Positions 1-63,100 of a stretch of DNA of 64,000 nucleotides are shown here, piece by piece. Both the position numbers and the translations under genes were made by a program. Every line of letters starts with the position of its first letter. The first letter of the stretch is position 1. The notes beneath the pieces are model-generated. The model saw only the letters and a list, made by a program, of their open reading frames with translations, ran no database searches and was not told where the DNA came from. This DNA comes from Ostrinia nubilalis. Taxonomy: Eukaryota > Arthropoda > Insecta > Lepidoptera > Crambidae. Where the stretch lies: contig NC_087112.1 of NCBI RefSeq assembly GCF_963855985.1, forward strand, positions 1,924,501 through 1,988,500, written 5' to 3'.

Positions 1-190
1 CACAAAGTGGACCGACGATCTGGTGAAAGTCACGGGAGGTGTCTGGATGCTGCTGAACATAGGCCTCTCCCAATGACTTCCACATCGCCCGGTTGGTAGC
101 GGCCTGTATCCAGCGCCTTCCTGCTACCTTTATGAGATCGTCGGTCCACCTTGTGGGTGGAAGTCTCACGCTGCGTTTTCCAGTGAGTGG
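1..190. repeat. RTE-like LINE 3'-end fragments, head-to-head
   Basis: Bases 1-49 read in the plus direction as the end of a non-LTR reverse transcriptase ORF (TKWTDDLVKV-like). From about base 50 to 190 the same family appears in the opposite orientation, with the hallmark CTGAACATAGGCCT and the GATCGTCGGTCCACCTTGTGGG block. The inverted junction suggests two fragments joined by rearrangement or twin priming. About ten more fragments of this family lie in the window. Confidence 0.75.
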
Positions 191-979
191 CCTCCACTTC
201 ATTGTAGCTTGTGTAGTACTAGCCATTATATCTTTTTGGGTGTATCTATGTTTTTCTCATTCCCCCAAAATTGCGTAAGTAAAAAGTGTCAAGACAAGTC
301 ATTGACTCAGAAGTTAGGTTTAGAATTGACTGTCACGCTAGAACTTGGTTCAAATTGAGGCTCTAACTTGGCGAAATGATTGTGTAACCGACGCGTTTAG
401 TTATCTAAATAGATTTTTGAAGGAACACGTTATTTGTTGTTACTTCTTTGTGTGTTTCCAAGTTATTGTTGCGTGCAATGCTTTTGCGCTTTATTTTGGA
501 GAATATACCTAAATAAACTTTTTTTTGCCAACGGCACAGTCTAGCTAGAAACTGGATATTGTGCTTCAAAGATATTTAAACACTAACTTCTTTAAAAAAA
601 ACTTGAATATACACGAAAATACCTAATATAAAAAAATTGATAGTCAAAGCGCTACTTTGAAAAGCAAGTATTTTGTAAGAAAATACAACAAAGGCAAAAA
701 GTATTACTGTAAATATTTACAGTAATACTTTTTGATAAAGACGTTAATAATGTTTCCTTTGTGCACAAAAAGAAGAAAAACATAATTACAGACACAACTC
801 AATTACACCTTAGTGTCTAAGGTTTTAATGACTAGTCTAAAAAAAGTTCAAACAATGTTGTTTTGGAACTTCTGATACCTACTCATAATTATTATATTGT
901 ATAGTAAGTATAGGTAGATAGATAGAACACACTTGATAGTACACCATACAAGACAAGAAAAGTAAGAGAAATATTTTAT
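191..979. other. No gene recognised; AT-rich sequence with one perfect palindrome
   Basis: I see no coding exon here. The only clear structure is a perfect 38-bp palindrome at 696-733 (two 19-nt arms, no loop). Confidence 0.5.
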
Positions 980-6823: not shown

Positions 6824-7179
6824 TGAAAAATAATTAAAGAACAGTCTGTTGTCCCATTATAGGACAGCTATAAACATTGGAAAGACCAAGTGTTGAATTA
6901 GGACCTTTTAAATTCATCCATTTTTAAACTGAAAAAAAATTCAGAGCTGTGTCAATCGTTTTAGATTATTTATTTATATTACAAATGAATAGATTTACAA
7001 AGGATTTTACTTCCTTATACGAGGGTGGTCTGAAAAGTTTCCGACCTCAACGTGAAGATGGCAGCACACATCAATTAAAGTCAGGGAATGTAATTGTGCA
7101 TCTTTTGACAGCAACACTTCAAAGTTTCAGCCATTTTTGACGCGCGGTTTTTATTTGAAAGTCGTTTGAGTGAGTCGAT

Positions 7180-8300
7180 GTGAGTATTTTTGTGAAAATG
7201 GAAAAAATCGAGTATCGAGCTGTCATAAAATATTTGTTTTTGAAAGGGAATACCCCTACGCAAATCAAAGATGAGTTAGATTCTGTGTACGGGGACTCTT
7301 CACCGTCATTTACCACAGTAAAATTTTGGGCAGCCGAATTTAAACGTGGCCGTAAGAGCTTGGGAGATGATGATGAACGTTCGGGACGTCCAAAAACTGT
7401 AACTACTGACGATAACATCGCTAAAGTTCACCAAATGGTGTTAGACGACCGCCGAATTAAAGTGAGAGAGATAGCAGAGGCCATGAAAATGTCCAAAGAA
7501 CGTGTTTGTCACATATTAAATCAAGATTTAGGCATGAGAAAGCTGTCCGCGCGTTGGGTGCCGCGTTTGCTAACGTCAGACCAACGACCAGTGTTGCCAA
7601 CTTAGTGGATGTTCCACTAAATCTGGTGGTTTTGACTTACCTACTAGCGGACAAATATGGGTTTTAGTGGCTAGTGGATTTATTTAGTGGAATTTAAGAA
7701 TTAAGGCTTTTTTTTCTTAAACATTGGAACAACGATTATATGGTCCACTCGTATCGTTTTTGGAGTTTAATTTCATCGTGCAGGCAACACTGTTCGAGCT
7801 AGCGAGTAAAGAGACCTAAGAAAAATGACAATAAACTATTATCGGGGATTCCCTGAGTTCCCTTTCCTAAAGTCGCAATTTTCGTTCGCGCTCATTGTGT
7901 TGGTGGCTTAGATTAATAAAACCTAGATGGATAGTCTTCATACAAACGCTTCGTCAAGAGTGAGGCAAAAATCTTATGTCATTAGTGTCAATTTTGTTGG
8001 GGAGTGTAGACAGTGAAGGCGATTTTCCCGAAAGTAGGGAAATTTTTAATACGTTTTTAATTATTTTATAATGCCAGACAAAAAAATAGTGGAAAATTTA
8101 GCGATTTTTACGATGGTGCGATTTTTATTAGTGGATTTCTGGTGATTTTAGAGGTCAATTCTGGTGGGGAGCTTGATACTTCGTTGGCAACACTGCCAAC
8201 GACGTGTTCGAATGAACATTTCCAATGCTCTGTTGGCGCAGTTTAGGCGCAATAAATCCGAGTTTTGGCGCCGACTAATTACTGTAGATGAGACTATGTA
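7180..8300 (+). pseudogene. Mariner transposase, interrupted and truncated
   Basis: The product would bind the element ends and cut and join DNA with a DD34D-type catalytic domain. The likely start is the ATG at 7198 (MEKIEYRAV). The N-terminal helix-turn-helix DNA-binding region covers roughly the first 110 codons, with FWAAEFKRGR and the GRPKT linker. The frame runs to the nested MITE at 7589 and, once that is ignored, continues at 8204 with a QFRRNKSEFWRR-like segment and TVDET, the first catalytic Asp block. A stop follows within about two codons. The other two catalytic Asp residues are absent, so it is dead. Confidence 0.88.
7589..8195. mobile_element. hAT-type MITE nested in the mariner
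   Basis: The 13-bp inverted ends CAGTGTTGCCAAC (7589-7601) and GTTGGCAACACTG (8183-8195) are perfect. They are flanked by a perfect 8-bp duplication, CCAACGAC (7581-7588 and 8196-8203). End sequence and 8-bp duplication both fit the hAT superfamily. The 607-bp interior has no transposase ORF, so the element is non-autonomous. Confidence 0.9.
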
Positions 8301-12700: not shown

Positions 12701-15700
12701 TAATTTTTATTTACAAATTGCTTAAAAAAATTGATCTGACCAACTGAACTGCTACAAACCACCAACCATTTATTTTATTCTTTTCGCAAAACCTATTTCA
12801 TGGATTTTGACGTCAGAATAGTGCACAAATTATGCTATTATTAGTTTTATTGAAGTATACACGTTTGAAGTCGCAGGGAAAACTAAACTATCCAACAGGG
12901 GTGAATATTATTATACCAACGCAATCATTAAAGAAAAGGGTTTTCCAAGGTTCACCCCTATAAGGGAACGGAATAAAATTTCACCATAGCATGGTGACCG
13001 TGGGCGTTGCCCCATGACGAATGCCACACATTTTGAATGGTATATTTGTATGAAATATTGATCGGTTTGGACTTACGCTTACGTGTTACATCTATAACGT
13101 AACCAAGGCTTGCGTTGATAAGAAAAAATAAAACGTGAAAACCAGACCAAATTCAATATCGAAATTTTCAAGAAAATTGGGAATTTACAGTAGAAAATAT
13201 TGAAATTATCCGATAATAATACTAAATTAAGTAGGCAGTGTATGTAGGCACCTCAAAATTGCGTCGCTTTCGTAATGAATAATTATTAAATAAGAAACAT
13301 TTACATATTATGCTTGTGTTAGAATTGGGTCCAACTAACTCCTTAACTTTAATCAACACCTTAAAATTCAGTAGCTGAAAAAAAATACTCGTTCATTTTA
13401 GTGGTTCTCTTTCTACCTATAGGTTCTACAATCAACCTACAAACATTATGTTCACCTGAAAGATGGTCCCCTTTAAATGTGCCACTTTAAATAATCCAAT
13501 AATTGGGTTCCTTGTCTCTTATGGGAACGAACTCGCCACTGCCTTATTTTACAAGTAAGGGGTGCCAGTAAATCAATACTTACGAATTCCTGAACTACTG
13601 ACCTTGTGTGACCGTAGCAACCGAAAGTCCTTTCAAAATATTAAGTTACGATTTAATAGACAAGTGATTGACATAATTCGTGAAAATGTAGGTCATATGG
13701 TATTAGGTTACCGCTTAATTGTTTTGTTTTACTTGGCTATACATTTCAGTTGAAACCAAAGAGCAATGGAATTCCTCCTTAAATAATCCCCCAATAAAAA
13801 AACTCACAAAATTCATTTTCTTGTGCAAGTAGGTTTTGAAAAACACTTTTACATGTCCCAGTATTAACCCTACCACTGCTTCAGGACAATAAATGAGTCA
13901 GTGCTGAGAAGAAGCAGCGCAAGAAACTCAATCACTTTAATTACTACTTTAACGACAATTTATTTTAAGGTTGTCGTTTGATGTTGACTTTTATTTTATA
14001 CCAGGACTATTCCCAAAAAAGTGACTATTCCACATTAATTTAGTGTACATTAAATTGGCTTACATGAGCATGTTTTTTGCTCTGTAAATGTACAAGGCTA
14101 AAAGTAACAGCCCGCATAATGAACTAACAAAAAATGCTATTATGTACCTTTTGAATTCACCAAAAAATACTAGCAGTTCCTGTAGGTAATATACAGTGCA
14201 GTCCAATTTTGGCGGTCTTATCGCTATAAAGCAATTTCCAGACAACCTAGAGGACAATATAAGATTTTGCAGTAAAAATTGTTAGTTAAAAACGTTTTCC
14301 TCCCGTTCCACCGTTGCAACTCCTGTGTAGCCAGGTCAATTTATTCTGAGGGGAAAAAACCCAACCAGTGAAGTTCAAGTTTGTCCCGGGGAAAAGTTAA
14401 ACTGTTAGTTACATACAAGATTACAAGAACCTTATGTGGATGTAAATAAATGTTATATTACAACAAAAACGATTAGCTACAATGGCGTCTTTTCCACAAT
14501 AGCCTTTGATTAACCAGCGGCGGCCATTTGTCTTGCTGTCCAGTCCCATCTACTATTTACCCCCCATCTTCCTGACTACTCATTGCGGCTGTAAATCTAT
14601 TGTTTGTGGTTACAATGTTGATTTGAGGGTATGAATTACTATAGCTTATGACCACAGGTATGATTGCGAAAGTTTGCTTAAGTGAAGCAGCAAATCGAAC
14701 GTACAGCATTGAATAGAGCTTTGTGATTGGTTCATGTGTCACCCTATGCATCCACGAGCACTGTGAGACCTCATAGTAATGTTTGTGAATATGGGCGAAT
14801 CTCCTTCACTAATTGCAGGACCATGCCGTCAGGTAGATCCGTCATACTCTATGGTCACTCTATGGTCATACTACGAGTAGATTTTTTTATCCACAACGAG
14901 GAAGCTCTTAGCCTGTATCTCACCTGATGGTAAGTGATGATCAGGCCGAAGGTGGAAGCGAGCTTCACCCGGAATCCTCAACCACGGAGGAACTGGCTAT
15001 CTTACCTAACTGCCGGAACACAACAATGCTGTTAACATTGTTGTTATGGCGACAGACTTAGGTAAGATGGTGGTAGCTAGCCAGGCGGACTTAGAACAAG
15101 GCCTACCGCCAGCCAAACAAAACAGAAAAATCTGCCCCCACTGGAAATCGAACCCGGGACCTCTGCGTCTGAAGCAGGTGGTCTTACCACTAGACCACAG
15201 AGGCGGTTGGAGTAGATTAGGCGATTATCACACTACACCGCGCTCCGCCGCGGTACGCGGGACGACAGATTTAATCATTGTATGCAAGTACCTCAGTTTG
15301 TATAGAAAACACGCGCGGCACAACACACTGACAACGCGTCTGCGCGCGGGATTTGTTAATGTAATCACGCGGACCGCGGCGGTGTGCGGTGCAGTGTGAT
15401 AATCGCCTTAGTATTTCGGAGTTCAATACTCTGTAGACTATTCAGATAGTCTAGATACAGTCTAGCTGTCATCATGGTGACCTTTTACTCATAGCACTAA
15501 CATGACGTGTGTGTACCTTCAAATCAAACGACTGACAGCGACCTTGCTTAGCTGAGTGGACAAGGTTGAGTCCTGCCACTAATAGAAGCGTGGTTTATTC
15601 AAGTTGCTTTCATCGAAATTGTATTGTTATTGTTTGTTTTGTGTAGCTGTGGGTTCAGAACGAGGAATTCTGATTCATAAAGTCTGACACTAGGAATTTG

Positions 15701-30700: not shown

Positions 30701-33700
30701 TTTGCCCTAGCACTTGTGTTATGTGATTTTTTAAACAATTAATTCAATTTTCATATTTACACCATAAAAGCCAAAAAGACAAAATAAATCTCTCGTAGTG
30801 TCGGTGACGTACCTATTTCGTTCACGTTTCACGTTGTCTGACCGTTAAATATAATTTTAATTACTGGTAAAAACAATGAAAAGTGTTTGTCATTACTAAT
30901 TGCTTAATTTTGTCGTTCCAAGAATGGTTCCAAGTTTATTTCCAACCTTGACACATACTTCAAACTACTGGTCAAAGTTTAGTTGTGAGGTTTTTCCAAT
31001 CATTGTAAGAAATAAGTGGAACAAACTTTACATACGGGTAGATATGTACCACATACTTTTATAGTATTATCGTACGAATCTTGCTAAGCGAAAATAGATT
31101 TCTCAACACATAAAAAGCATTAGAGCAATTTGTATTTCTACGTTTGCTTCTCTGAGGTAATCCCGATCAAGATGGATAAGAAAAGTGTGTAGGTATAATA
31201 ATATTGTAGTTTCTGAAATGAAATAAACATGTATCTTTATTTAAGTTTCACCCAAGACATGAAAAAGGAAAGCCCGTAGAGTCCTTCTTTTTACAATGTC
31301 CCCTTTATCTTTTCTGCCCTTACCAGCAGTGCAGCGTTTCGAAGCAAACATTAAAGTCGCTCCCGCTGTCTGTGCGCTTAGATCTTAAACTACGCAACGG
31401 ATTTTAATCCAGTTTTCAGCAATAGATAAAGTGAATGTTTAATGTATTAATACATAGCACCTGTGCGAAGCCGGGGCGGATGGCTAGTTATGACATAACA
31501 ACGTGATAAACACAACAAGTTTATAGCATTAGTGTAATTAACAACTCAAAATGTATGTCAATGATTGTAGACTCAAGTAAGTACCCAAATATATCCTCCT
31601 AACATCAAGTCTGTTTTGTTACAGCTGCACTCGGAGTACCGCAGCACATACAGATGGCACGAGTACAAGGAGCAGCAGCAGGGCGTGATGAAGCAGCCGG
31701 CGCCCACGCCACCCAACGTGCTGCCTCTCACCAGGGGTGAGTGATACGTGATACACGACCTTGACGTCTCGTGGTCCGGCGATAGAGACCGCAACAGTTG
31801 TCGCGAGTACAAGGAGCAGCAGCAGGCAACGTGCTGCCTCTCACCAGGGGTGAGTGATACGTGATACACGACCTTGACATCTCCGTAGCTCGGGAGACCG
31901 CAGCACAGATGGCACGATTACAAGGAGCAGTAGCCGGCGCCCACGCCGCCCAACGTGCTGCCTCTCACCAGGAGTGAGTGATACAGGAGCATGGACGCTT
32001 CTGTAGCCCGGCGGGAGAGACCGCAGCACAGATGGCACGAGTACAAGGAGCAGCAGCAGGGCGTGATGAAGCAGCCGGCGCCCACGCCGCCCAACGCGCT
32101 GCTTCTCACCAGGGGTGAGTGATACAGGAGTACAGGACCATGGACGCTTCAATACCCCGGTGGTAGAGACCGCAGCATAGATGGCACGAGTACAAGGAGC
32201 AGCAGCAGGGCGTGATGAAGCAGCCGGCGCCGACGCCGCCCAACGTGCTGCCTCTCACCAGGGGTAAATGATACACGACCATAGCTGCTTCATTAGCCCG
32301 GCAGTAGAGACCACAGAACAGATGGTACGCAGTAGGGCGTCTGCCGCTCACCAGAGGTAAGTGATACAGGATGGACGCCTCCGTGGCCAGTAGTAGAGAC
32401 CGAAGCACAGATGGCACGAGTACAAGGAGCAGCAGCAGGGCGTGATGAAGCAGCCGGCACCCACGCCGCCCAACGTGCTGCCTCTCACCAGGGGTGAGTG
32501 ATACGTGATACACGACCTTGATATCTCCGTAGCTTGGGAGACCGAAGCACAGATGGCACGAGTACAAGGAGCAGTAGCCGGCGCCCACGCCGCCCAACGT
32601 GCTGCCTCTCACCAGGGGTGAGTGATACGTGATACACGACCTTGACGTCACGTGGTCCGGCGATAGAGACCGCAACAGTTGTCGCGAGTACAAGGAGCAG
32701 CAGCAGGCAACGTGCTGCCTCTCACCAGGGGTGAGTGATACAGGACCATGGTCTTCTCTGCTCTTAAGAGAGATACAATTTGGAGAGCCAAAATCATCAG
32801 TACATGGACGTCTCCTTGGCAAGAGAGACTCTCGATTTAGGTTTGATTCGAAGGTGGAACACCCATTGTATGAATTTAGATGGCTATCTAGTCTCCTACG
32901 TACTGGGTTAGTGTGTCAGAGGTCGCGAATACAATGTCCGCACAGTATCTGGATATTTTTAACCAAATTACATTGCTCATTGTCATAATTAAAGTCCTAT
33001 TACCAATTTTATTAACTGATAATCGCACGCACCTGAATGTCACTTGTGGTATTTCTCTTTCGACGCCCATAATGGCAAATCTTGCAACAGGAATACGCAC
33101 TAAAAGCTGCATGTTTCCAGGTCCCATGGAGCCGGCGATGCCCCGGCGCAAGAAGTACCCCGGCGTGGCGTACAAGACCAACGAGCTGTTCGACCCGGCG
33201 CCCGCCGACGACATCCGCCCGCAGCAGACCTCCGCCTTCGATAGAGCCAGGGTGAGGCCACAGCTCTTTATTCACTGGTCATCTTTGTAGTGTGGGACAG
33301 GGCGGGTCTAGTACAAGAGGTCCATGGGTCCAATATCCGCCCGCAGCAAACCTCCGCCTTCGATAGGGCCAGGGTGAAATGACAGCTCTTCCATCACTGG
33401 TAACCTGGTCTGAATCTGAAATAGAGTGTGGGTCTATTAAAGTTAAGGTGAGCCTCATTATCACTGAACCAGAGTAAGGAGATAGCTTTTAAGTCTCAGA
33501 AATAGGGTCTCTCTCTATCTTTAGTGTGTGATTTATGTCGGTCGCTCGTGTTAACGAAATACGAATCAGTCATGATCATTATTTAGTCTGCAGAAAGACC
33601 ACGGTCCTCAGAGGCAAATTGATTGATTGATTTGGGCATACACTCTCCCACGCTGGTCAGACGAGTTGGGGATGTTCATATTTAAAACGTCTAGAAGCGA

Positions 33701-36700
33701 GCAGCGTTGGATAGGTTTTTGTAAAATCCTCGAGCTCTCTGTGCAGCAATGCAATTATTTTGAGTTGAAACTCTTGAAACTTACGAAATGTGTTTGTTCC
33801 AGAGCGCTCAAAGGAACGATGCTGACAGGGCAGGCCGGCGCAGCAAGTCTGAAGGTCCTCGCCAACCGCGGTGGACGGACACCGTCGAACCAAAGGTAAT
33901 TTAGTTCTCAACAACTTTACCTAACAAAACTATTGTGTGTGTATTGACTGTGTGTACAAAAGGTTATTTATCGCAGTCAAAAACCTTGCTAGAAACCTTT
34001 ATTCCTATCTGGAATGTTCTTGGATTGCATTTTACCTGATAAAAAGAAAGTTCAAAATTCTTACTCACAGGAACTACATCCAAGTTCAGAAACATAATAA
34101 AGGCTGTTAACATTGCATAAAATAGATTAAAATTATTTTCTCTTTACAAAGAATACAAAAAGTTTTGGGTACAATTTGAGAGAGTACAAGATAAAACCTT
34201 GCAAGAGACTGGTGTCTAAACTAGGGTAATCCCTGTGTAAATAATACCCGAGGGCTTAGTGTGAATTTATATCAAACGTCGTCACTAGCGAGCGCGTAAA
34301 AAAACATATGAAATATTAATTCTTGAAAGTTTCCGCTAGCGTTGTACAATCCGTCATACTTTTTTACGCAGTCGATGTCGACTGACATCGAATGCGTTTG
34401 ACGTAAACTCACACTACGCCCCCAGACTATACAGATAAATGTCACACCTAGGTAATAACTACCATCATAATCACACCTTAAACAAGCCCTACCCCCAGTC
34501 CTGGATCTGTCAATAGGCCATATAGGCCGCGGCCCAGGGGCGGCAGATTTCAGATGACGCTTACTCGATTTCAGAAGATAAAAGTTAAATAAAGATCCAA
34601 CCCCACCCTAGCCTAGGGGTGGCAAAACTGTAAATCCGCCACTGCCTAAAGCCTGGTCCGTGAGCACGTAGAATTTTGTCCAATGACTCCAAGCTACCCA
34701 TCCTTATCGCTCGCGCGTAATTATGTTGCTGTCGCGCTCGCACACTCACTGCAGACGCCCGTCGCACAGTCGCAACAGCAATATAATTACTCGCGGGCGA
34801 CAAGGATGGGTAGCTTGGGGTCATTGGACAAAATTCTACGTGCTCACGGACCAGGCTTTACCACCGATCAACCTTTTCAGCAACACCAAACTGATCCTCT
34901 CATCGATCCCCAGGGCTCCACAGCCCTCGGCGACGTGGTGGCAGCGAAGGAGCCCGAGGTGGTGAGCACGGAGTACAGCCAGCAGTTCGCCTGGCCCAAG
35001 GACACCACGGATTCTGCCCCTCGGAAGAGCATCTCCATGGGAGCGCTGAAGAAGGCCGCCGTGGCTGAAGGTATACTAGCTTCCACTCCTATACTAACTT
35101 TAGTATCTTGTGTTTATAATCAGGTTATTAAATCTCCAATGAAGTAAGAATATACAAATACCTTAGCCCCTATGTTCATTATCAGGTCATGAAGTCTTCA
35201 ATGCAGTAGGACGACCCTTTCTAATTTAGAGTAGAGGCAAATTAAGGATTTGGCCTACAACTCCCACGCAGGCTATAGTCTGGTCTGCGAGCACGTAGAA
35301 TTTTGTCAAATGACCCCAAGCTACCCGTCCTTATCGCTCGCGCGTTATGAGGGCTATCGTTTTAGCGCTTACCAGTTGGCGCCACTGTAGAGTAAGGTCC
35401 TGTCACTTGCTAGTAGCGAAGACAGTGGCGCCAACTGGTGAGCGCTAAAGTGGTAGGAGGACTATCGCATTTGCACTCATCAAGATGGCGCCACTGTAGA
35501 GTAAGGTCCTGTCAATCGCCAGGGGTGCCAACTGTTAAGTATAAAAACGATAGCCCTCATTATATTGCTGTCGCGACTGTGCGACGGGTGCCCGCAATGA
35601 GTGTGCGAGCGCGACAGCAAGATAATTACGCGCGAGCGATAAGGATGGGTAGCTTGGGGTCATTGGACAAAATTCTACGTGCTCACAGACCGGGCTTTAG
35701 ACGGGTTGGGGAGGCTTGATGATTACATGTTTCTTTCTTAGTCGCCTCTTACGACATCCCAGTCCTCTACGTTATTGAAGGAACCAGAATTTATGAGGTC
35801 AAGTTGATCCTGAATCCAGGTTTCAATGAGTTGTAGCTGTAAGAATATGGGCTCTTTCCAGGTCAATTACACATCTTAAGTATAACCACTTCTTTGGGCC
35901 AACTTATCGGCTAAGGAAATGGCGGAAAATACTCAATCATATAACATAGGTATAGATTCATAAATAAGCAACATAAACTAGAATCTGGGATTTCGAGTTT
36001 AAATAATTGCGTCATCACATTAATATTTTGTCCCCCACGGGGTTCGAACCGCTACTACAGCTATTGTTCTACTTGATTATGCAAATTACGCAGCTACACT
36101 TTACTCATGACAAAGCCACAATTTAATTAGATCACGTGAGGAATTGTGTTTTAATTGTAAATCTAAATACAATTTTTCACTTTAAGGCAAACCTCCGATT
36201 CCAAAAAAAGTCCATAAATTACAAACCGCTTAGCATAACGAACCAGCTACAATTCACCGCTATTGTATAATTTGGGATGCACAAACTACCCACAGACAAT
36301 CCAAACTTAATGCCGGCGCCGGGAGCCCGGATGGCAACTTTATGCCATACATAAAACATAGGCCAATCCACCAAACTTTATCCGGCTGAAAAATTATAGT
36401 GCTGCCTGTAAACTACATGTCGATAATACTTTATTGCCATTTACGTAGGAAGGCAAACATAAAGTAATAAACATCGATAATATTCTCCATGCATGCTAAA
36501 CTCATTAAACTTTATCTATATCTCTTACAGAATATAAAAAAAGGTATTGGTTTGTAATGTAGATTTTAATAACTATCTAACGCAGTTTGAGTATCTAATA
36601 TTACAAATCGAATAAAATGCAAATGAAAACAAATTAAACTATAAAATGGTAATCTTTATTCACATAGTTATTCGATTTATCAATCTATATATAAAAGAAA

Positions 36701-39700: not shown

Positions 39701-42700
39701 GCCGTTTTTAGTGGCCAGCCGTCCGCTTACCGCATCAAGCACAATCCAAGAAACGAAAGAGAGAAGACTAAATTAACCCACCATAAAAATAAATAAGAAA
39801 AGCAGCACAAGAAACACTAGATATGGAAAAATAATGTCAAAAGACAGCGAAAAAGACGACAAAAACCCAGAACCGCATAATATCGACTGAATAGTCAAAA
39901 GTGTAAATCAAATAATCGAAAAGAGAAGATTTATTTAGCCCAAGACAAAAAAAAAAAAAAAGAAATATTCGAATCAGGGAAAACAGACAACAAAGAAGAC
40001 GACAAAAAACCCAAAACCACAGTTATCGCCGTAGTAATTATTAAAAAAAAAAAACAAAAGGGTCAAGTTTTTCAGAGGTTGTGGATAAATGGAACTAAAA
40101 TTTAAATATCTACTATCCAAGAAATAGAAAAGAGTGAACTCAATTATGACACAGAGAAATGAAGCATAAGAAATATCTGACCCGGAACATGTAAAGGAAA
40201 GAAAACGTCAAAAACTCAGTAGGTACCTACCTAACACAGAACTCAGGAGAAAAAGGAACATAGCCTAGCAGCAGTACAAGAACCAAGACATCTCACCAAA
40301 GGCCAGACCGCCCGTCTCATCACAGAAACGCTCAGTCCTACCAACGATATCAAGAAAAGTAGCATAAAATTGGAAAAAAAATGAAGCTAGTCTTGTAGCA
40401 GTAGAACTAAGAAAAACCAAGCCGCCTCAACAAAAGCCAGACCGCCCATCGCATTGCATCAACGCTCAGTCCGACCACCAATATCAAGAAAAGAAGCATA
40501 AAATCGGAAGAACAATGATGCTAGTCTTGTAGCAGTACAAGAACTAAGAATAACCAAGCCGTCTCACTAAAAGCCAGATTAAGCTAAAGAAAAGAAATAC
40601 AAGAAATGTTTTACCTGGAGGAATATATAGGCAGAAAATAAGACGATACAATTGGGAGAACAATGAAGCTAGTCCAGTAGTAGTACGAGAACAAAGAATA
40701 AACAAGCCACCTCCCACACCAAAGGCTAGACCGCCCATCTCATCGCACCACGCATTTAGTTCTTCCAACGACACTAAGAAAAGAAGTAGAAGAAATAATT
40801 AATCTGGAAGATACAGAGACGACAAAAACTTAGTACCGCAGACATCAAGAGAACAACGAGGCTAGTCTAGCAGCAGTATATGAACCAAGAACAACCAAAG
40901 CCACCATCAAAGGCCAGACCGCCCATCTCATCGCATCAACGCTCAGTCCTATCAACGATAACCCGTCTTTACCTATTTTCCTAGACCAGGCTCAGGATGC
41001 ATATCTACTTGGTTGTGGTCGACCGGTTGCGGTTTAAAAGACGCAGCGGCTAGTCGGCCGTCCTCTCCCATCCCAGAGCGTGTCTTTCCTTAAAATCGTG
41101 CCCCCTGGTATACCGGTTTGACCGGGACAGGCCTCGTCCTGGCTGGGTCGGCACTATCGTATCGTATCGTATCGTAAGACGAAACTTTCCTAAGCTACAT
41201 GTGACTGGCCATGTTAGGTTTCACACCGGCCTTGAGTCTAGCCGCTGTCTGCCGCTAGCGTTTATTGCCTAAATCTATTTTTACGTAAATGGATCACCGT
41301 TAATCCTTATAACAGTGTAGCTTAGCACACTTTTATATTATTATTGTTACTAGCTTTCCGCCCGCGGCTTCGCCCGCGTCGAATTTTGTCTGTCACAGAA
41401 AAACTTTATCGCGCGCGTCCCTGTTTCAAAAACCGAGATAAAAACTATCCTATGTCCTTTCCCGGGACTATCTCTATGCCAAATTTCATCAAACTATCTC
41501 TATGCCAAATTTCATCAAAATCGGTTCAGTTGTTTAGGCGTGAAAGCAAGACAGACAGACAGACAAGAGTTACTTTCACATTTATAATATTAGTAAGTAT
41601 AGATTCGCGTTATAAACTACCTAGGCACACTCTTCTTTGTCATAAGTAAGTATAGAAATTGACACATACAAAAATATTTTTTTTTGCCAAAATCATAAAA
41701 TAACTTCAAAGAAAATGGTTTCTTTTCTATTCACTTGCTAACAGAAGTAGGCTACTTCTGCTGTCTGTCATACTGAAGACCAATACATACTTTTATAACT
41801 GTGAGGCCAGCTCAGTCAAGTGTGAGAGCGCCATTTTGTATCCTGTTGATTGGTTTTTGATGTTATTTTTTTATCTTGTAAGGATGTACTTGCACCAATT
41901 AAATACTTTTTCTTTCTTTCAAAAACGGAGTTATTTTCACTTTTATAATATTATCAGTTAGTAAAGAAGTAAATATTCAATTTAAAATGAAATCACTTCT
42001 AATCCCTCTAACTTATTCAAACCATCCTGACTGAGATTAAACTTGCTCCAGAAACTTTAGTTTTGCTCTCTCAGAAGAGATTTACGAAGTTCAGCTGTGA
42101 GGGTAGATTATACTTCAAAACCTCTATTCCTAATTATGATTAATCTCATTATTTAACTATTAAGCAGGTTGATTAAAGCTGAGAAGATAATTGTGAATTC
42201 TGTTCAAACACCCGCCTTCAATCAAAGTGTTTTAGGGGGAGAGTCTTCAAACAACTTTTATTGTTCACGTATTTATAGCCCAAACTTTGGTATTGAAAAA
42301 TTCAGCTAGGCGAAACTCTTCGGAATTCTATCTGTACTTAGACTGAAACTTCTTCGGATTTCATAATACATAAAACTCCTACGTGTATATACGTTTACCT
42401 ATTATTACATGTAACTACATAAGTTGATAAAAATAATGTGTTAATGAAGGAAAACAAACACACTAATCTTTACATAATGGGAATCAAATGTTTAAAGATC
42501 GAAAAGGAATTATAGGTACTATCAACAGAATATCGTCAAATCCCGCAAACTTTTCCAGGGTCGGTAGAAGCCGAACCTCTCATGAACCATGTGGACGACC
42601 ACGATGACCACAAGAGGTACATCGAAGACTACCTATGGAACGGCCAGAAGCCAGGAGTGCAGAGGTTAGTGCCCACTTAGAACCGATAATCGTGGATGGA

Positions 42701-45700
42701 AGTTGATTCGGTTATATCGATTTGGTTATCTAGATGATATTGTTATGATCTCTAAGAACTTTCAAAGACATTAAGGACAGTTAAATTCAAGAATGATGAA
42801 TTGTAATGTTTAACAGATTATTGGTCTTACAGTTTTCATGTAAACTTTCACCTTTTTATTAAAAAAATATCTAGTATTTTTAATAACAAACCAAATCAAA
42901 TAATTTTGCACAAGGATAAAATCATTACGTCATTTGTAGTAAAATTGAAAGTAATATTACAATACATGATTGAATAATGAATAACCAACTCGATTTAACC
43001 GACCAACTTCCATTTTAACTATGAAAGTTGAGCGCCTGTTTACATGGTTAAACTTGTTAACAAAACGTTGACTAGCGTGAGTTGAACTACCCACGTGCAA
43101 AGTTTGCCCATAAATATTATAGGGCGCCGTAACCAGGCGCTCAACAAAAGCTTCAGCTTAACCACACTCTCATGAAACGCTTCTCATATTTTTCTATAGT
43201 TCATATTATAAATTATGGATTGTTTCATTGGTATTTTATGATATTTTTCTTTTTAATACAAGCATGGTTTATTTTTTATAACATTAAACACTGAACATTC
43301 AAATCAATTCAAGAAACAGTCTGTAAATTTGCAAAACTATCACAGTATCTAAGGTCCTCACAAATGCTTTGCTTCGAGCTAAAGCAGCAGCTTCTTCGCA
43401 AGTAATCTCATCAAATCTAAAGGTTGTGGTCTAAAATTATACCCTTTTCTCATTCAGACACACACAGTCTCAAATTGTCTCACACTAACACACAACCCTA
43501 TCGTTATTTATTTTACAAAAATCCGTGAAATTCCGGACATCGTATCTAAATTTATGTAGATGATTATGTATGTATTATTAAAAATATAGTAGAACTGTAA
43601 ATACTAACATTTCAAAGATAATATTTTGGATTCCATAACTTTTCAGGTGAAGATTATTAAAGTTTTTTAAACAAAGTTACTGCTAATAGCTTCTGACTTT
43701 TTCTGTGTCTAGCTTTGTGTACTAACCCCTATCATGAAGGAAACTTTTATATTAAATTTAATTTCACCTCTTTACACTTTTAATTCAGTAATTAATCATA
43801 GAGGAATTGTTTGAGTTCATAAGATACACAACGACGTGATTCAATATTTGATTCATTTCATCTAAAGAAAGTGTCTGCCATTTTGTACTTCTCGTGAAAA
43901 TCAAATTTTGATGTTAACTTTATCTCTCAAACTTACACTTGAACACTTATTATGTCTCGAAAATTTGTCGATTCTCGCAGTAAATATTTTACAAGAGCTC
44001 TTCACAGTCCCATTGGGATGTAGTAGCTCGTATTGGGTCATTGCCCAACTTTTTTGGCAGACTGCAGGCTTTAACAGCAAAACGATGCAACTCCAGACAT
44101 GATTCATTACTGGTTCCCTGGCGCCAAGCCCAATTGGTAGCTCCCATCCTGCCGAAGTTTCCTTCATGTGTGTTCTGCCCCTAATTCTTTTCAAACAAGT
44201 ACTAACAGCAGAACAAGTCTAAATTTCGTTTTTGGTATTTGCTTACATTTCTCCTCACGGTGGCGGTGTGTAGGCCGAGTAGTTTTAGACGATACTAGTT
44301 CGGAATGACAGCTAATAGATACTTTTTAAATATCAATGTGTCCTGCACTTGTCGATGTGAACGTTCATACAGATTTTTGTTAGATTGTATGTCAATGTCT
44401 CACCCAACACTTCTATAACACTATTTTGGAATTAGTAGTCACTGGGCGGCGCCCACACGTCTGTCGGTCGACCTCTAGACTCTTCTCCGTCTGACATCCT
44501 AACTCACCATTGCGAGCTTGAAAATTATTTGAAGCATGTCTACCTTACTAACCCGGCTCGGCGCGAGCTGTTTCTTTTGCCGCATCATCATCGTAAACTC
44601 CAAGCGTCTAAGACTTAAAATGGAATTTTGCAGAAAATCGACGTTCCGTAGCGCGCTATCGGCCCTCATATCCAACGGGGAGGATCGTTCCAAAGATAAT
44701 AGGAAACGTTACAAAAGCGAGTACAAAAAGAAATTTAGACCGTTCTCTCAGTACGTGTATGAGGCGTCTAAAGGGACATTTACGAAATGCAGGGGGAAAG
44801 GAAAGACGAATGAGGAGGCGAGCGAGAGGATGCTGGGGGAGAAGCAAGTGGCAGGGGGGTCGGGGGAGGGCGCGGGGGCGGGGGCGGGGGCCGGGGCGCG
44901 GGCGGGGGCGGCGGGGCCCGCGGGGGCGGCGGGGCCCGCGGGGGAGGACAGCGCCAGCACGCTGCGCGCCGCCGGCCTGCAGCCGCTGGGGCTCGCGCAG
45001 GGCGACTCCTGGTACCGCGAAGTCCTGGACCTGCGCAAGCGCGCCGGCGAATACAAGGTCTGCGGCCATTTACAATAGAATACCACTAAATTCCCATTAA
45101 AAGAGGAGCGCCTAGCCGTATACTGAGATGTAAGGCTGAAGGAGCGAGGATACGTACGCTGTGAATACATCTCAGGATACGCCTAGAGATGTGATAGGTT
45201 TGATGCTAGTTTAGAGTTGCCAAAGAAACTGCCAGTACACTGTGAATATCTTGTGAACATAATTTTTGATGAATACAAGCGAAACACCGTTTAGACCCCC
45301 AAATATTTTTCCGTCCTGAATTAATTTGTTTTCTTACTCCTCTTATCCTTGAGCCACCATCCGAACGATCATAACAGTCGAGCTTAGTCATCATGCTTCG
45401 TCATTCTCAAAATTGCCATTATTCGACAGTACCGCGGCTGGGGAACCGAACTAGCTCCTGAACACATCACACAGCTTTACAATAAGCAAATCGAGCTCTG
45501 GTACCAAGTGTCGCGCCGGTCCTCGCTGTCAGCCCTATCACTTGCTTCCACCAATCACAAGTAAGTGATGCACCCGAGATTTATGAAGCAGGACATCCGG
45601 CTCGAAGGACCAACTAATATTTCCACTGTAGTTCTTATAAGGTCCTTTCAGCCGGACGTAATCCTGCTTAACATTATCATAAGTATAATTAGTAGCAAAA

Positions 45701-48700: not shown

Positions 48701-51700
48701 AGTAGAACTCTTGTTGAATAATTATTGCTAATTTGATGTGTATCTTGCCTTCAACTGTTAACTATCATTTAGTTAATGTCGTGTTCCTGCTTGATGCCTG
48801 CCCCTGACCCTGTGGATAAATTTGAGAATTGGCTCTATGTTCTAAAAACAAAACCTAATAACAGCTTTTCTTTAATCTACTTACCCTGGTAATTTCTATA
48901 CATCACGTTGGGGAAATTCCAACAAACCTATGCAACATTCGTCGCATGGGGCAAATTCGACAAATGACCTTTTTGGAATGTTAGCTAGGGAAACTTTGTA
49001 TAAAGTACTGTGTTTACAAAAATGGCTATCGTTTAGCCAAAATATATTACGTGCTTTACTATGCTCGTACCAAAATCTTAATTTTATTCACTTTATGTAA
49101 TGTAAAAGTCGAATAATTAAAAGGGACAATAAGGTCCTCCTACAGGATAACCATAACTTGTCATGGTACTTTAAAAGTTAGTTACCAATTTTCAGAGCCA
49201 ATTTCTCAAAAGCCACGAAAAATGTTCAGTAGCCAAATTTCTTTCTGTAGGTTTGCCGTTGAGTAGAGGGGCTAGTAATAGAGTTAGGTCTACATCCCGC
49301 GGGGGGCGGTCCCCCTCCGCGCCGAGCAAAGTGGCCCCCCTTACTAACGGGGTGGTGGCCCCTGGGGCCCTGGGGGCCACCGGGGCGCCGGGCAGGGGCC
49401 GCCGCAGCCGCAGCGTCTCGAAAGTGGGAATAAAGTTGGGTGCGTACGAGTGACGTTGCGTCGACGCTCTGTGTTGCACCGTGGGAGTGTTGCTTGTTGG
49501 ACGCCAATTACTGTGAACACATAATCAGTCTTGTTGGTGATTTTCTTGAAATACAGTTTAGGAGAAATTGCAAATTAAATTGACTGTCATACTATAGTCT
49601 GGTCCGGGAGCACGTAGAATGTTGTCCAATGACCCCAAGATTTACACTATGTAATCTGTTATTGTAACATACAACCTTCGCGAATGTTTGCAGTAACTGG
49701 CGCTCCAATAGTTGGTTGCTTTTTTAAACTTTTGTTTTATATTTTCCCTCTTTTCCAATTGGCAACATTCCTTTAATTTTGGCCTCTGGCTTTAAAATTC
49801 TGTCTTGCTTTTGTGATTTTGATTCTTCATTTGTTTATTGGTCAGTGCGTCTACGCAACCCCGTCACGTAATATCCTGGCACCGGAGGGAATGGCTTGTC
49901 ACGTCACTCGCGTGTCAGTGTCACCTCACAAACGTGAGTGTCACGCCACGCGACGTGGCTGTGTTTTTTGTCCGTCCGTGTGACACCTGCACCCTTCCAC
50001 TATAGATGTGAACGTTTTGTGGAGTTTCCTCATTGATGGGGATTTTTATACAATATTTTTAATTTATTCATTTCTTGACTGAAAATACTGAATGAAGCTC
50101 ATTCTTGTAATATTTTAAACGAACTTACGAAGAAACTTTGAGATTTAATAGAATACTTAGTAGGAATCACAAAAGTTTTTTGATGAAAATAACTGAAAAA
50201 AATAGTCACATTTCACAATAGCGCACAAATTAATAACTAAGTATAGACAAAATAGACAACTAGTAAAATTTACAATGTGTGCAATATTTATTTGTCAATG
50301 TTATAGATAGTGTGTGTATAGAATATTTCCTGTAAGTGCTCTATACTCATAGTCGTGTGAAATGGGGACATTTTGTTCAAAGTGGGGTTTGATTAATTTA
50401 TCTAAAATGAAAACTATCTGGTTTTACGCGATTATAAGTATGGAGTTACAATTATGTTCCTTAGAAAATTATTTGCATGCAGTGTGTTAATTTGATGTTA
50501 GCTGAATATCATTTAGATTTTCCAATTTGTGATGGGAACGGGAGTCTTGGTTATTGTAATTAGGTCTGTTTCCGTAATTATTTAATCTTCCTTGACTTAT
50601 TTTACTAGTGAATATTTTACAGGTTAAATATTTGTTGCCTTTAAGTAACTTTGAACTAAATTGAGTTCACTTACAACCGAATTTGAGAAATGCACCACTC
50701 ATTTCTAGGCCTATCTTTTACGACGGCTTTTCTATCCTCACTACAACCAAGCATGTATGTAAAATATTATTTAATTAACTAGAATATTTAAAAATTATGT
50801 AAAGACACTCACACTTTTGGATAGAATTTCTGTATTAAATTACTTAAATTTTAATCTACTTGGGATCGGCACATTTTATCGATAAAATTGCAAAAATGTC
50901 CCCAAATTTTGACATTAGACACAGAGCAGCAATATCGATCCTATTGATTCAAATATTAGGTAACAATAAAGTTTAAAATCTTAGCTATAACGTATACTTA
51001 CCACAACACCCACAAAATTCCAGATGACGAGATCCCGTCTCACCGGAGCGCGTCCGTGGCCAAAGACCACTTCTTCGACGACTCCCCTGTCGTGAAATCG
51101 CCCCCTGAACCTACCAGGGTGAAGTCCCCGGAGCAGATGAACATGCGGTCCCCTGACCCTGTCAACTGGACCGTTCCCCTGGACACGGGGAAAACCTTCA
51201 CAGTGACGCAAAACGTCAAGAGCGGTGAGTGCAGACTATTGAATAAGCTCGGGTATTGTAGCTAGATTAGTCGGGGCAAGTTTTCTGGTGGGGCTATATG
51301 GGAATATTTTGGGGCTATATGGTAATTGCGGATTTTTTTGAGTGTCATTATTCTGTCACTGTAACTTTTTGAGATATTGTCAGATGTGTTCTCGGGTCGT
51401 AATTTATCTATTTCATATTGAAAGAATGTATTTTTAAACTTACCTAACTTATTTATTTTTTTACTTTACGCGGCTATTTTAGTTAAAAAGGCATTGAAAA
51501 CGCATAAATATAATTTCTTCTTTAAATAAGTATTTAGTATAAGTTTAAGCTTTACTTAAGTTACTCAATAAGGTGAGGGAGTCAAAATTGTTAATTGCGA
51601 TAGCAAATTAAAAAGGAAAATATAAGAAAAATGACACGAAAATCCCGTAATTATCTAGAAAGATAGTACCTACTAATTATATCAGTATTTACTCAAAGGC

Positions 51701-55416: not shown

Positions 55417-55866
55417 TTTTAAATTGAAATACACAATTTACGTTCTATGGCCACGTGACATTTGCGTTCGAAACATGACGTAAATTATTTTGGATGGTAT
55501 TCGAAAAATAACAAAAATAAATAAGAAATATAAAATTACTCCCTTATAAAAATACTTAGCAACTGATAAAACCTACAAGGGCAATTGTATACACACAACT
55601 AAACCGTCCAACGTAGTATTTTTTGGCAAGTCATGTTTTCTTGGCTATTTATTCCAAAGTGTAGATTGTATTTCTGAACGTACATTTTTGATATTAACCA
55701 ATCCAAGCAAAGCGTCAGAATGACGTTTAAAAAACAACCAATCATAGAAGTTTAGCATTTTTGGCGGCATAATCATTTTAGTTTGCTCATCGCAAAAGTT
55801 TTTGGAGTTAACTTTTTCATTGATATTATAAATTGAGTCTCATAATATTTTTATATAAGTATAAAT

Positions 55867-56571
55867 ATGGAAATATCACGCAAATCCTGCCGTCTCTGTC
55901 TATCTGAAACCGAATTCAATGTTTCATTGTTTGGAAACTACTGTCGTAGAACGAATATGATCGAGAAAATCCTTGTTTGCTTGAAGTTGGTTATCGAAGA
56001 TAGCGATACGTTGGACACAATTTGTTACAAATGCGCCGAAAGCGTCGAGAGATATTACGATTTTGTCACACGCGTAAAGAAATGCCAGACGCGGTACAAA
56101 GACACCTGCCACGAGCATGAGCCTCGGCAGCGCAGCATGGAGCTCTCTCCGACTCATGTCAAGCGACACGTGACGTCCTACGTGAGAGAGCAAGTTTACG
56201 ACGCGGATTACACGTTTTCATTCCTTGAAATGCCGAACAACGACGAAAAGAAAGAGTCTAAGGTATCTAGTCCGTTCTTTTCTTATTTCTCCCCGCCGAA
56301 CGTGCTGGCGAAGCAACCTTGCGTCGAGCCGATGTGGAAGACGCCTAAGCCCCGCGAGAGCTCCCCAAAGAAGGAATTATTGAACGAAAATAGGTATAAA
56401 AGACCGTACAAACCTGAGAAAAGGTCGCGGCACCACTCCAGAGACCTCTTCGAGTCTCAGTCGCAGGACGTGGAGGAGCCCGAACCCAAGTCCCTCGACT
56501 GGAAACTGACCCCCGACGACAACCTAATCAAACGGGTCAGGGAAAAATGCTTTGGACGGTCCGATTTCTAA
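55867..56571 (+). CDS. ZAD-domain protein without zinc fingers
   Basis: Single-exon ORF of 234 aa; start ATG after ATAAAT, stop TAA. Residues 6-75 form a zinc-finger-associated domain (ZAD/zf-AD). It has the paired ligands C8xxC11 and C53xxC56, the helix MIEKILVCLKLVIED, and the CYKCAESVERYYDFVTRVKK end. ZADs are arthropod dimerisation modules, usually followed by C2H2 fingers in nuclear transcription factors. Here the remaining 160 residues are charged and low in complexity (KRPYKPEKRSRHHSRD), with no C2H2 pair. It may act as a dimerising partner or adaptor; that is inference. The gene lies 1.1 kb after MDM1 on the same strand and is probably an independent transcript. Confidence 0.9.
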   Translation: MEISRKSCRLCLSETEFNVSLFGNYCRRTNMIEKILVCLKLVIEDSDTLDTICYKCAESVERYYDFVTRVKKCQTRYKDTCHEHEPRQRSMELSPTHVKRHVTSYVREQVYDADYTFSFLEMPNNDEKKESKVSSPFFSYFSPPNVLAKQPCVEPMWKTPKPRESSPKKELLNENRYKRPYKPEKRSRHHSRDLFESQSQDVEEPEPKSLDWKLTPDDNLIKRVREKCFGRSDF

Positions 56572-61715: not shown

Positions 61716-61858
61716 TTCTTTATAGGGCCTATAGTGAGAGGTCACGTTTCGTTTTCTGCCTCTACTTACTTGCTATTTAACCTTGCTATAAGCTAGCACT
61801 CCCCGAAGTATGAGCTAGCACTCACCCACTTCTTAGAGTTATGTTGACTCGCTGTCTA

Positions 61859-61921
61859 AAGTGCGGTCGCCGAGCAGATAGAATTTCGTCCAATGACCCC
61901 AAGCTACCCATCGTTATCACT
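61859..61921. repeat. MITE family H variant, left end only
   Basis: AAGTGCGGTCGCCGAGCAGA through AAGCTACCCATCGTTATCAC, after TA at 61857-61858. It breaks off into a GC-rich segment (about 61930-62230) with CGGGCAGCG-type repeats. Confidence 0.65.
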
Positions 61922-62328
61922 CGCACGTAAGGCACGCGGGCAACGAGCGGGCAGCGGCGAGGGAGCGGGCAACGAGCGGGCAGCGCACTCCTTCTTTTGC
62001 CCACAATAAATCGAGCGTTAGGAATAAATTTGAATCGAAATAAAATTGTCGCCATTGTTCAGACATTTCGTTTGCGAATAAAAACAAATATCTCGACAAC
62101 ACAACCCCGAACACAACACTTCGCCGCTAAAGCGCCGCGCGAGCTGCCCGCTTGTTTCGAGAACAGGTCTGCGTTGCCCGCCCCGCTCCAGCGCCGCCGC
62201 CGCTCCCGCCCCGCTGCCCGCTAAGTTCGAGGCTGAGGCCTAAGACTTGTATTTTCTCCCTATTTAGACTCTCATACCATCTAGGCTTAACTTACCCGCT
62301 TCTTAGACTTATGCTCACTCGCTGTCTA

Positions 62329-62534
62329 AAGTGCGGTCGCCGAGCAGATAGAATTTCGTCCAATGACCCCAAGCTACCCATTCTTATCACTCGCACGTAA
62401 CTATATTGCTTTCGTGACTGTGCGACGGGCGGGCGCAGTGAGTGTGCGAGCGCGACAGCAATATAATTACACGTGATAAGGATGGGTAGCTTGGGGTCAT
62501 TGGACGAAATTTTACCTGCTCGGTGGACGGACTT
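62329..62534. repeat. MITE family H variant, full copy
   Basis: 206 bp, TA on both sides (62327-62328 and 62535-62536). The left TCCAATGACCCCAAGCTACC block is mirrored on the right as GGTAGCTTGGGGTCATTGGA. Related to 34649-34858 with different outer ends. Confidence 0.8.
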
Positions 62535-62770
62535 TAAGCTAAAACTCCTACTTAAGACTTATTCTCACCTGCCGTTTATTCTTGTATTCTCTCCCTATTT
62601 AAGCTAACTCTTACCCACCATTCAGGCGTGCACTGACCCGTTTCTTATGCTTATACTCACCCGCTGTATAAGCTAGAACTCACCTACTGTTTTAAGACTT
62701 ATTCTCACCAGCTGTTTAGGCTTGTATTCTCTCTCTATTTAGGCTCTCATACCATCCAGGCTTAACTCAC

Positions 62771-62881
62771 CCGCTTCTTCGGCTTGTCCTTGGCGCGCGG
62801 GCGCTCGTCGTCGTCCCTGGTCGTCTTGCGGCCCATAACACCCAGTAACTTGCTGACCATGCTGCTGTTGCAGCGGGTGTC
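62771..62881 (-). pseudogene. Partial duplicate of the exon at 63220-63351
   Basis: The minus strand repeats the exon from GACACCCGC to AAGAAGCGG|GTGAGT. Changes are few (Arg to Cys at the CGCTGCAAC site, plus mostly silent changes). The 5' seven codons and the acceptor are replaced by unrelated sequence, and the only nearby AG would enter in the wrong phase. It is probably a dead exon copy, although the reading frame is intact. Confidence 0.82.
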
Positions 62882-62948
62882 GCCCGTTGTATAAGCTGTA
62901 TGAGCCAGCACTCACCCGCTTCTTAGACTTATACTCATTCGCTGTCTC

Positions 62949-63100
62949 AAGTCCGGTCGCCGAGCAGATAGAATTTCGTCCAATGACCCCAAGATACCCA
63001 TCCTTATCACTCGCACGTAAGTATATTGCTGTCGCGCTCGCACACTCACTGCGGCCGCCCGTCGCACAGTCACAACGGTATCTGCTCGGCGGCCGGACTT
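62949..63100. repeat. MITE family H variant, internally deleted
   Basis: AAGTCCGGTCGCCGAGCAGA at the left; TCTGCTCGGCGGCCGGACTT at the right. The centre is shortened and the TA flanks have mutated. Confidence 0.7.

Follow-up and report, generated by a model that had tools for sequence, protein, structure and literature searches.

Donor-bearing half-exon copies form a tandem array in an intron of Ostrinia nubilalis MDM1 and recur at other exon ends of the genome

How a row of near-identical 5' splice sites came to lie within one intron of a conserved gene, and how the gene's splicing tolerates it, is the question raised by a locus of Ostrinia nubilalis. The window analyzed here is a stretch of 64,000 nucleotides corresponding to C25:1924501-1988500 of the genome (495,445,069 bases, 52 contigs). 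A composite query built from the exons of the gene matched lepidopteran MDM1 proteins, and the exon at 44632-45066 matched PF15501; no Pfam match was obtained from the exon 2-5 or last-exon pieces alone. In an Ostrinia furnacalis protein, the last MDM1 exon was identical at 141 of 141 residues, and exon 2 had one residue changed. Judged from the PF15501 match and from homology along the gene, the gene carrying the array is MDM1. Exon 2 (31625..31736, plus strand, 112 nt) is preceded by an AG at 31623-31624 and is frame-compatible with exon 3 (LTRG-PMEP), like its lepidopteran homologues. Exon 3 (33121..33251, donor GT at 33252) and exon 4 (33803..33895), both on the plus strand, were placed by homology, and the intron that holds the array is about 1.4 kb long.

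An earlier note had described nine splice donors at a spacing of 93-149 bp, and all were reproduced, at positions 31737, 31850, 31974, 32115, 32264, 32357, 32494, 32618, and 32731, with successive spacings of 113, 124, 141, 149, 93, 137, 124, and 113. The array is beyond chance, with self-alignments down to an E value of about 1e-124. By inspection, a T-rich tract and AG precede 31625 alone, which bore out the claim of a single acceptor, at the first copy; no acceptor was seen inside the downstream units. The further claim that each copy carries the 3' half of exon 2 held fully for copies 4, 5, and 7 but needs correction for the others: an internal deletion interrupts copies 3 and 8, and only short stretches of exon survive in copies 2, 6, and 9. 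The present full unit comprises about 99 nt of exon and about 50 nt of intron. On the plus strand, donor 1 (31737..31742, GGG/GTGAGT, the slash marking the splice junction), which is expected to be the one in use, is followed by units U2 (31737..31849, ending at donor 2 at 31850), U3 (31850..31973, ending at donor 3 at 31974), U4 (31974..32114, ending at donor 4 at 32115), U5 (32115..32263, ending at donor 5 at 32264, a weaker site with GTAAAT), U6 (32264..32356, the most degraded unit, ending at donor 6 at 32357 with CAGAG/GTAAGT), U7 (32357..32493, ending at donor 7 at 32494), U8 (32494..32617, ending at donor 8 at 32618), and U9 (32618..32730, ending at donor 9 at 32731), after which the intron is unique.

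The array consists of head-to-tail copies, in register, of one local segment, as is characteristic of a tandem partial-exon duplication or minisatellite. All eight downstream copies lack the same 4 or more nt of exon 2, and they therefore descend from one founder; these 4 nt are needed for the frame in homologous proteins, and exon 2 itself is conserved in homologues. Alignment of the units gave two groups, U2/U3/U8/U9 and U4/U5/U7, with U6 degraded. Most units differ by 4 to 17% and U6 differs by 28 to 38%, whereas U2 and U9 differ by 0.9%, a single aligned difference. The proposal that a second round of duplication is visible in matching first and last spacers was upheld, since identity is 99.1% between U2 and U9 and 96.0% between U3 and U8. 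The matched pairs mirror each other across the array (U2 U3 ... U8 U9) while sharing one strand, which suggests at least two out-of-register exchanges. By eye, the start of the intron after donor 9 resembles that of the spacers at donors 3, 4, and 6. A second stretch of unique intron at 32804..32829 (plus strand; ATGGACG..TCC..TGGC..AGAGAC) resembles the end of a spacer and is the probable right breakpoint of the founder duplication. Because these two places resemble the start and the end of a spacer, the founder duplication probably spanned the segment between about 31638 in the exon and an intron base now near 32829.

The DNA of the MDM1 array had one match in the whole genome, which does not fit a dispersed repeat or an introner with copies at many unrelated loci. 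Introners are repeats with splice signals that lie in introns; the MDM1 array differs from them in being made of local tandem copies of the neighboring exon. A protein search with the 269-amino-acid minus-strand frame of the array found no independent record at an E value of ≤0.001 among 4,387 candidates, and Rfam and tRNA scans of the window returned just one tRNA-Leu, far from the array.

U1 pairing was predicted at -11.2 or -11.5 kcal/mol for seven of the nine donors and at -7.3 and -6.5 kcal/mol for donors 3 and 5, respectively; among 1,500 GT sites sampled from the window as a yardstick, the 1st percentile was -7.8 kcal/mol. The description of the array as a row of near-identical 5' splice sites was thus accurate, with most of them strong and donors 3 and 5 weaker. 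The statement that only the first donor keeps the frame was right in effect, since extension of exon 2 to any of donors 2 to 9 includes an in-frame TGA just past donor 1 (31742-31744, plus strand, codon 40 of the extended exon), so that use of any of these donors would give a premature stop. We infer that donor 1 is the donor used. Donor 6 is the strongest U1 match, slightly above donor 1, and is the only donor in the array with AG/GT; the 17 nt before it are 65% pyrimidine. Recursive splicing uses AG/GT ratchet points, and, from its sequence, donor 6 could serve in this way and leave the mRNA unchanged. Recursive splicing, which the earlier note had raised as a possible consequence of the array, is unlikely as its basis or as that of such arrays in general: within the MDM1 array AG/GT occurs only at donor 6, and in 13 of 21 inspected arrays the first donor lacks an AG immediately before the GT. 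The length of the MDM1 intron, about 1.4 kb, also sets it apart from known recursive splicing. The last count also speaks against AG/GT-based intron gain as a common basis. Mutually exclusive duplicated exons do not describe the locus, as the units contain no acceptor, nor does intron gain by AG/GY tandem duplication, since exon 2 ends in GGG/GT and no second acceptor was seen.

The same gene holds a second, smaller case. The end of exon 3 recurs, donor included, at 33335..33401 (plus strand), 122 nt downstream of its source at 33213-33279, with 86.6% identity over 67 nt and a weaker donor at 33374. Self-alignment of the window gave no copy of the end of exon 4. Elsewhere in the window, a later MDM1 intron contains an AT-rich tandem array of about 134 bp units at 40250-40960 that is not evidently derived from an exon. 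Self-alignment also showed a short palindromic family resembling a mobile element (34646-34860, 35273-35348, 35559-35700, 49592-49639, and 61808-63076); by eye, a stretch resembling it lies inside a half-exon array at C2:2090631. An open frame at 7174-7605 resembles what we take to be the N terminus of a mariner-type transposase, an open frame at 55846-56571 in a neighboring zinc finger gene has a zf-AD domain (PF07776), and the predicted tRNA-Leu(CAG) at 15133-15204 (minus strand) adjoins dispersed repeats.

Kinase and myosin-head exons of the same genome were examined at the DNA level for local duplications at an offset of 30 to 800, of at least 40 nt and with at least 72% identity. A case was called donor type when the upstream arm held the 3' end of the exon without its 5' end and acceptor type when the downstream arm held the 5' end without the 3' end. 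Donor-type copies were found at 14 of 122 exon matches (10 of 76 kinase and 4 of 46 myosin matches) and acceptor-type copies at none in either family, although some regions had less than 400 nt upstream of the exon, so that acceptor copies at larger offsets could escape. The counts draw on 76 of 138 kinase and 46 of 79 myosin table rows (48 myosin rows were entered, and the 2 without fetched sequence dropped out); the first look had scored 125 of 666 kinase and 65 of 140 myosin candidates, so that many-copy exons may be overrepresented. Sampling of intron-split kinase rows followed the order of the table, except that six earlier rows were skipped and rows after C27:1173522 were included only where fetched regions contained them. 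Matches inside an already counted array were not recounted (C2:10898843 and C18:4176513 were classed otherwise), and a C9 myosin match (13830847), downstream of which part of an exon recurs, was left out. The donor-type regions are L039, L044, L045, L046, L087, L088, L091, L092, L093, and L099 for kinases and L060, L063, L071, and L055 for myosins; dynein and SNF2 copies lie in L102 to L106. The sequences read show exon 3' parts repeated together with their donors, twice in the smallest cases and at least seven times in the largest. In 13 of the 14 cases the aligned donor GT is intact in at least one copy, the exception being Mhc C8, whose copy has lost it. The genes with arrays include what we presume to be PKG, PAK, Hippo, and brm, and some near-identical half-exon copies in these other genes are probably young.

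Four further families, in which every first-look candidate was scored (DHC_N2, 78/78; AAA_8, 59/59; SNF2, 83/83; Cpn60_TCP1, 77/77), gave the same asymmetry. Matches were grouped by profile range into 208 exon groups, a protein-level view in which donors are invisible, and a group was called donor type when downstream copies shared its 3' end and lacked its 5' part. Of these groups, 189 were single, 15 donor type, 0 acceptor type, 2 whole, and 2 other (sign test on 15:0, P = 6e-5). Two donor-type groups are ambiguous, C17:8603526 ending at the profile end and C14:4454862 overlapping its partner; without both, the ratio was 13:0 (P = 2e-4). The donor was carried in all four groups whose DNA was read, and the other 11 of the 15 rest on the protein profile. 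One "whole" group, L105, proved to be donor type on the DNA, its copies starting a few nucleotides inside the exon without an acceptor. In that region (1-701, minus strand), a dynein-family exon has two in-frame, stop-free 180-nt copies, and it is the sole inspected case in which downstream donors could yield longer in-frame proteins. On C2, an SNF2 exon is followed by 13 copies, 12 of them spaced 163 nt apart and the last 178. Arrays thus reach about 14 copies and occur in conserved genes that include the dynein, SNF2, and CCT families. Together, these results (14/122 and 15/208) speak against the view that the array is peculiar to MDM1, since donor-side half-exon copies recur across the genome.

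Whether donor-type arrays exceed what local duplication would supply was judged against a background. Of the 30 local arrays in the 254,747 bases examined (L002 to L102), 16 touch kinase or myosin matches and 14 do not; removal of a dynein array from the 14 left 13 arrays in about 203.5 kb, some of which may sit at unrecognized exons. With a target of 126 nt, about 0.008 arrays are expected per donor, so that the background alone would supply 1.0 array where 14 of 122 were seen and 1.7 where 15 of 208 were; a generous 400-nt target raises the expectations to 3.1 and 5.3, respectively. For acceptor-type copies, the background predicts about 1 to 3 in 122, compared with none observed; because so few are expected, the zero is not itself proof of purging. 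The donor excess is therefore the firmer half of the asymmetry, the acceptor count being near the background or slightly below it.

In 21 arrays, a count that takes in seven of the eight downstream donors of MDM1 exon 2, use of 56 downstream donors would give a premature stop in 50 cases and a changed frame in 4; only 2 would escape both. Since the genes are conserved while most later donors give stops, splicing presumably uses the first donor. We consider it likely that the MDM1 array is an intronic minisatellite that arose from a duplication straddling the donor, that it belongs to a genome-wide class, drawn here from a single assembly of a single species, and that use of the first donor spares donor-side copies. 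By this account, a tandem duplication across the exon 2 donor would have created the founder copy in the intron, and unequal exchange or template switching would have enlarged it into an array; more generally, exon ends in O. nubilalis would duplicate into the next intron and may then expand. The first-transcribed donor, which is the authentic one, would pair with the upstream acceptor, and later copies would stay intronic and harmless, whereas a duplicated acceptor would place the wrong copy first and be harmful. Such a first-committed-donor rule, tolerating duplicated donors but not duplicated acceptors, would account for the one-sidedness; the near-neutrality of the arrays and this reason for the survival of one orientation are our inference. 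A splicing filter alone is insufficient, however, because donor arrays exceed the background, and exon ends must also be prone to duplication. Speculatively, a donor-linked process, with a paused polymerase and U1 or with R-loops, could make them so.

In the strongest rival explanation, which we regard as unlikely, that mutational process would do nearly all the work, through breaks or repriming at a U1-paused polymerase or through R-loops at GC-rich exon ends, with little selection. Donor arrays stand about 3- to 14-fold over the local background, depending on the sample and on a target of 126 to 400 nt. Copies straddling the stop codon were absent from all 29 long kinase frames in which a stop was located (some of these stops may not end real genes), compared with donor copies in 10 of 46 intron-split kinase matches (Fisher P = 0.0055), although the kinase sample may be biased. 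Among 55 long-frame rows, the one with a stop-straddling copy was the Mhc C8 donor case; a general fragility of exon ends is accordingly not borne out by stop-straddling copies. In favor of the process, many arrays have, by a hand tally, only a short piece of intron in the unit (about 14 to 60 nt), but most two-copy cases include about 83 to 560 nt of intron, so that a short intron part is no universal rule, and the process itself left no direct sign. Units were exon rich in at least 12 arrays and intron rich in 6 (a hand tally without a statistical test); by eye and post hoc, exon-rich units were found in 12 of 12 arrays with three or more copies and in 1 of 7 two-copy arrays, a tally that leaves out C1:1546662 and the SNF2 array, both exon rich.

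It is quite improbable that the extra donors are functional decoys, selected because they tune MDM1 output through nonsense-mediated decay (NMD) isoforms or U1 sequestration. Across 20 arrays, 54 of 57 copies retain the GT, the U1 match of donor 6 slightly exceeds that of donor 1, and a gap-free comparison of related copies showed the fewest differences in donor columns (5.9%, compared with 8.7% in exon and 17.8% in intron). The difference between donor and exon is nevertheless small, for which the youth of the copies suffices, and we rejected selection on decoy donors as weakly founded; the genes concerned are also conserved and diverse, and some copies degrade freely (U6, and Mhc C8, which lacks the GT). 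Finally, assembly stutter or a wrong copy number, for which the near-identical units of some arrays (C2:10899203 and SNF2 on C2) could leave room, is very improbable at MDM1, because the assembly was built from PacBio HiFi reads (44-fold, QV 68.8, 21.96 Gb in 1.50 million reads [PMC11851004]) that, at about 14.6 kb, far exceed a 1.1-kb array of mostly diverged units.

The donor-straddling minisatellite that we favor has relatives among known systems. GC-rich minisatellites and variable-number tandem repeats (VNTRs) occur in introns; the arrays resemble them in unit length, variant units, and unequal exchange and differ in that the unit is a coding exon end with a donor of working strength, the class being situated at the 3' ends of exons of many genes. 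Described in Drosophila (PMC2891723) and reportedly in potato RdRp, intron gain by tandem duplication is similar in involving a tandem partial exon with a splice signal within the unit and in a discussion of NMD as a backstop; there, however, an AG/GY unit makes a new intron within an exon, whereas in Ostrinia copies of a donor already present accumulate within its own intron, and no new intron was observed. Reed and Maniatis are said to have placed competing identical 5' splice sites in cis in duplicated splice site constructs in the 1980s; the Ostrinia arrays are natural, reach about 14 copies, and lie in conserved genes, where evolution has settled the outcome. Among titles and the beginnings of abstracts, subscription papers excepted, we found no paper on genome-wide, one-sided arrays of donor-bearing half-exons. 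Partial exon duplication and minisatellites, by contrast, are both familiar.

A bolder reading, which we offer tentatively and think less likely than not, is that exon 3' ends in this moth are hotspots of transcription- or splicing-linked duplication, such that about one conserved exon in fourteen (15/208) would carry spare donors that a robust rule of first donor wins disregards. How a cell chooses among equivalent 5' splice sites has long been asked and has been tested mostly in constructs; this genome supplies natural arrays in which "first donor wins" can be set against "donor nearest the acceptor wins." Their one-sided placement bears on how duplications of exon ends originate or are purged, and the half-exon copies are a warning for those who annotate genes.
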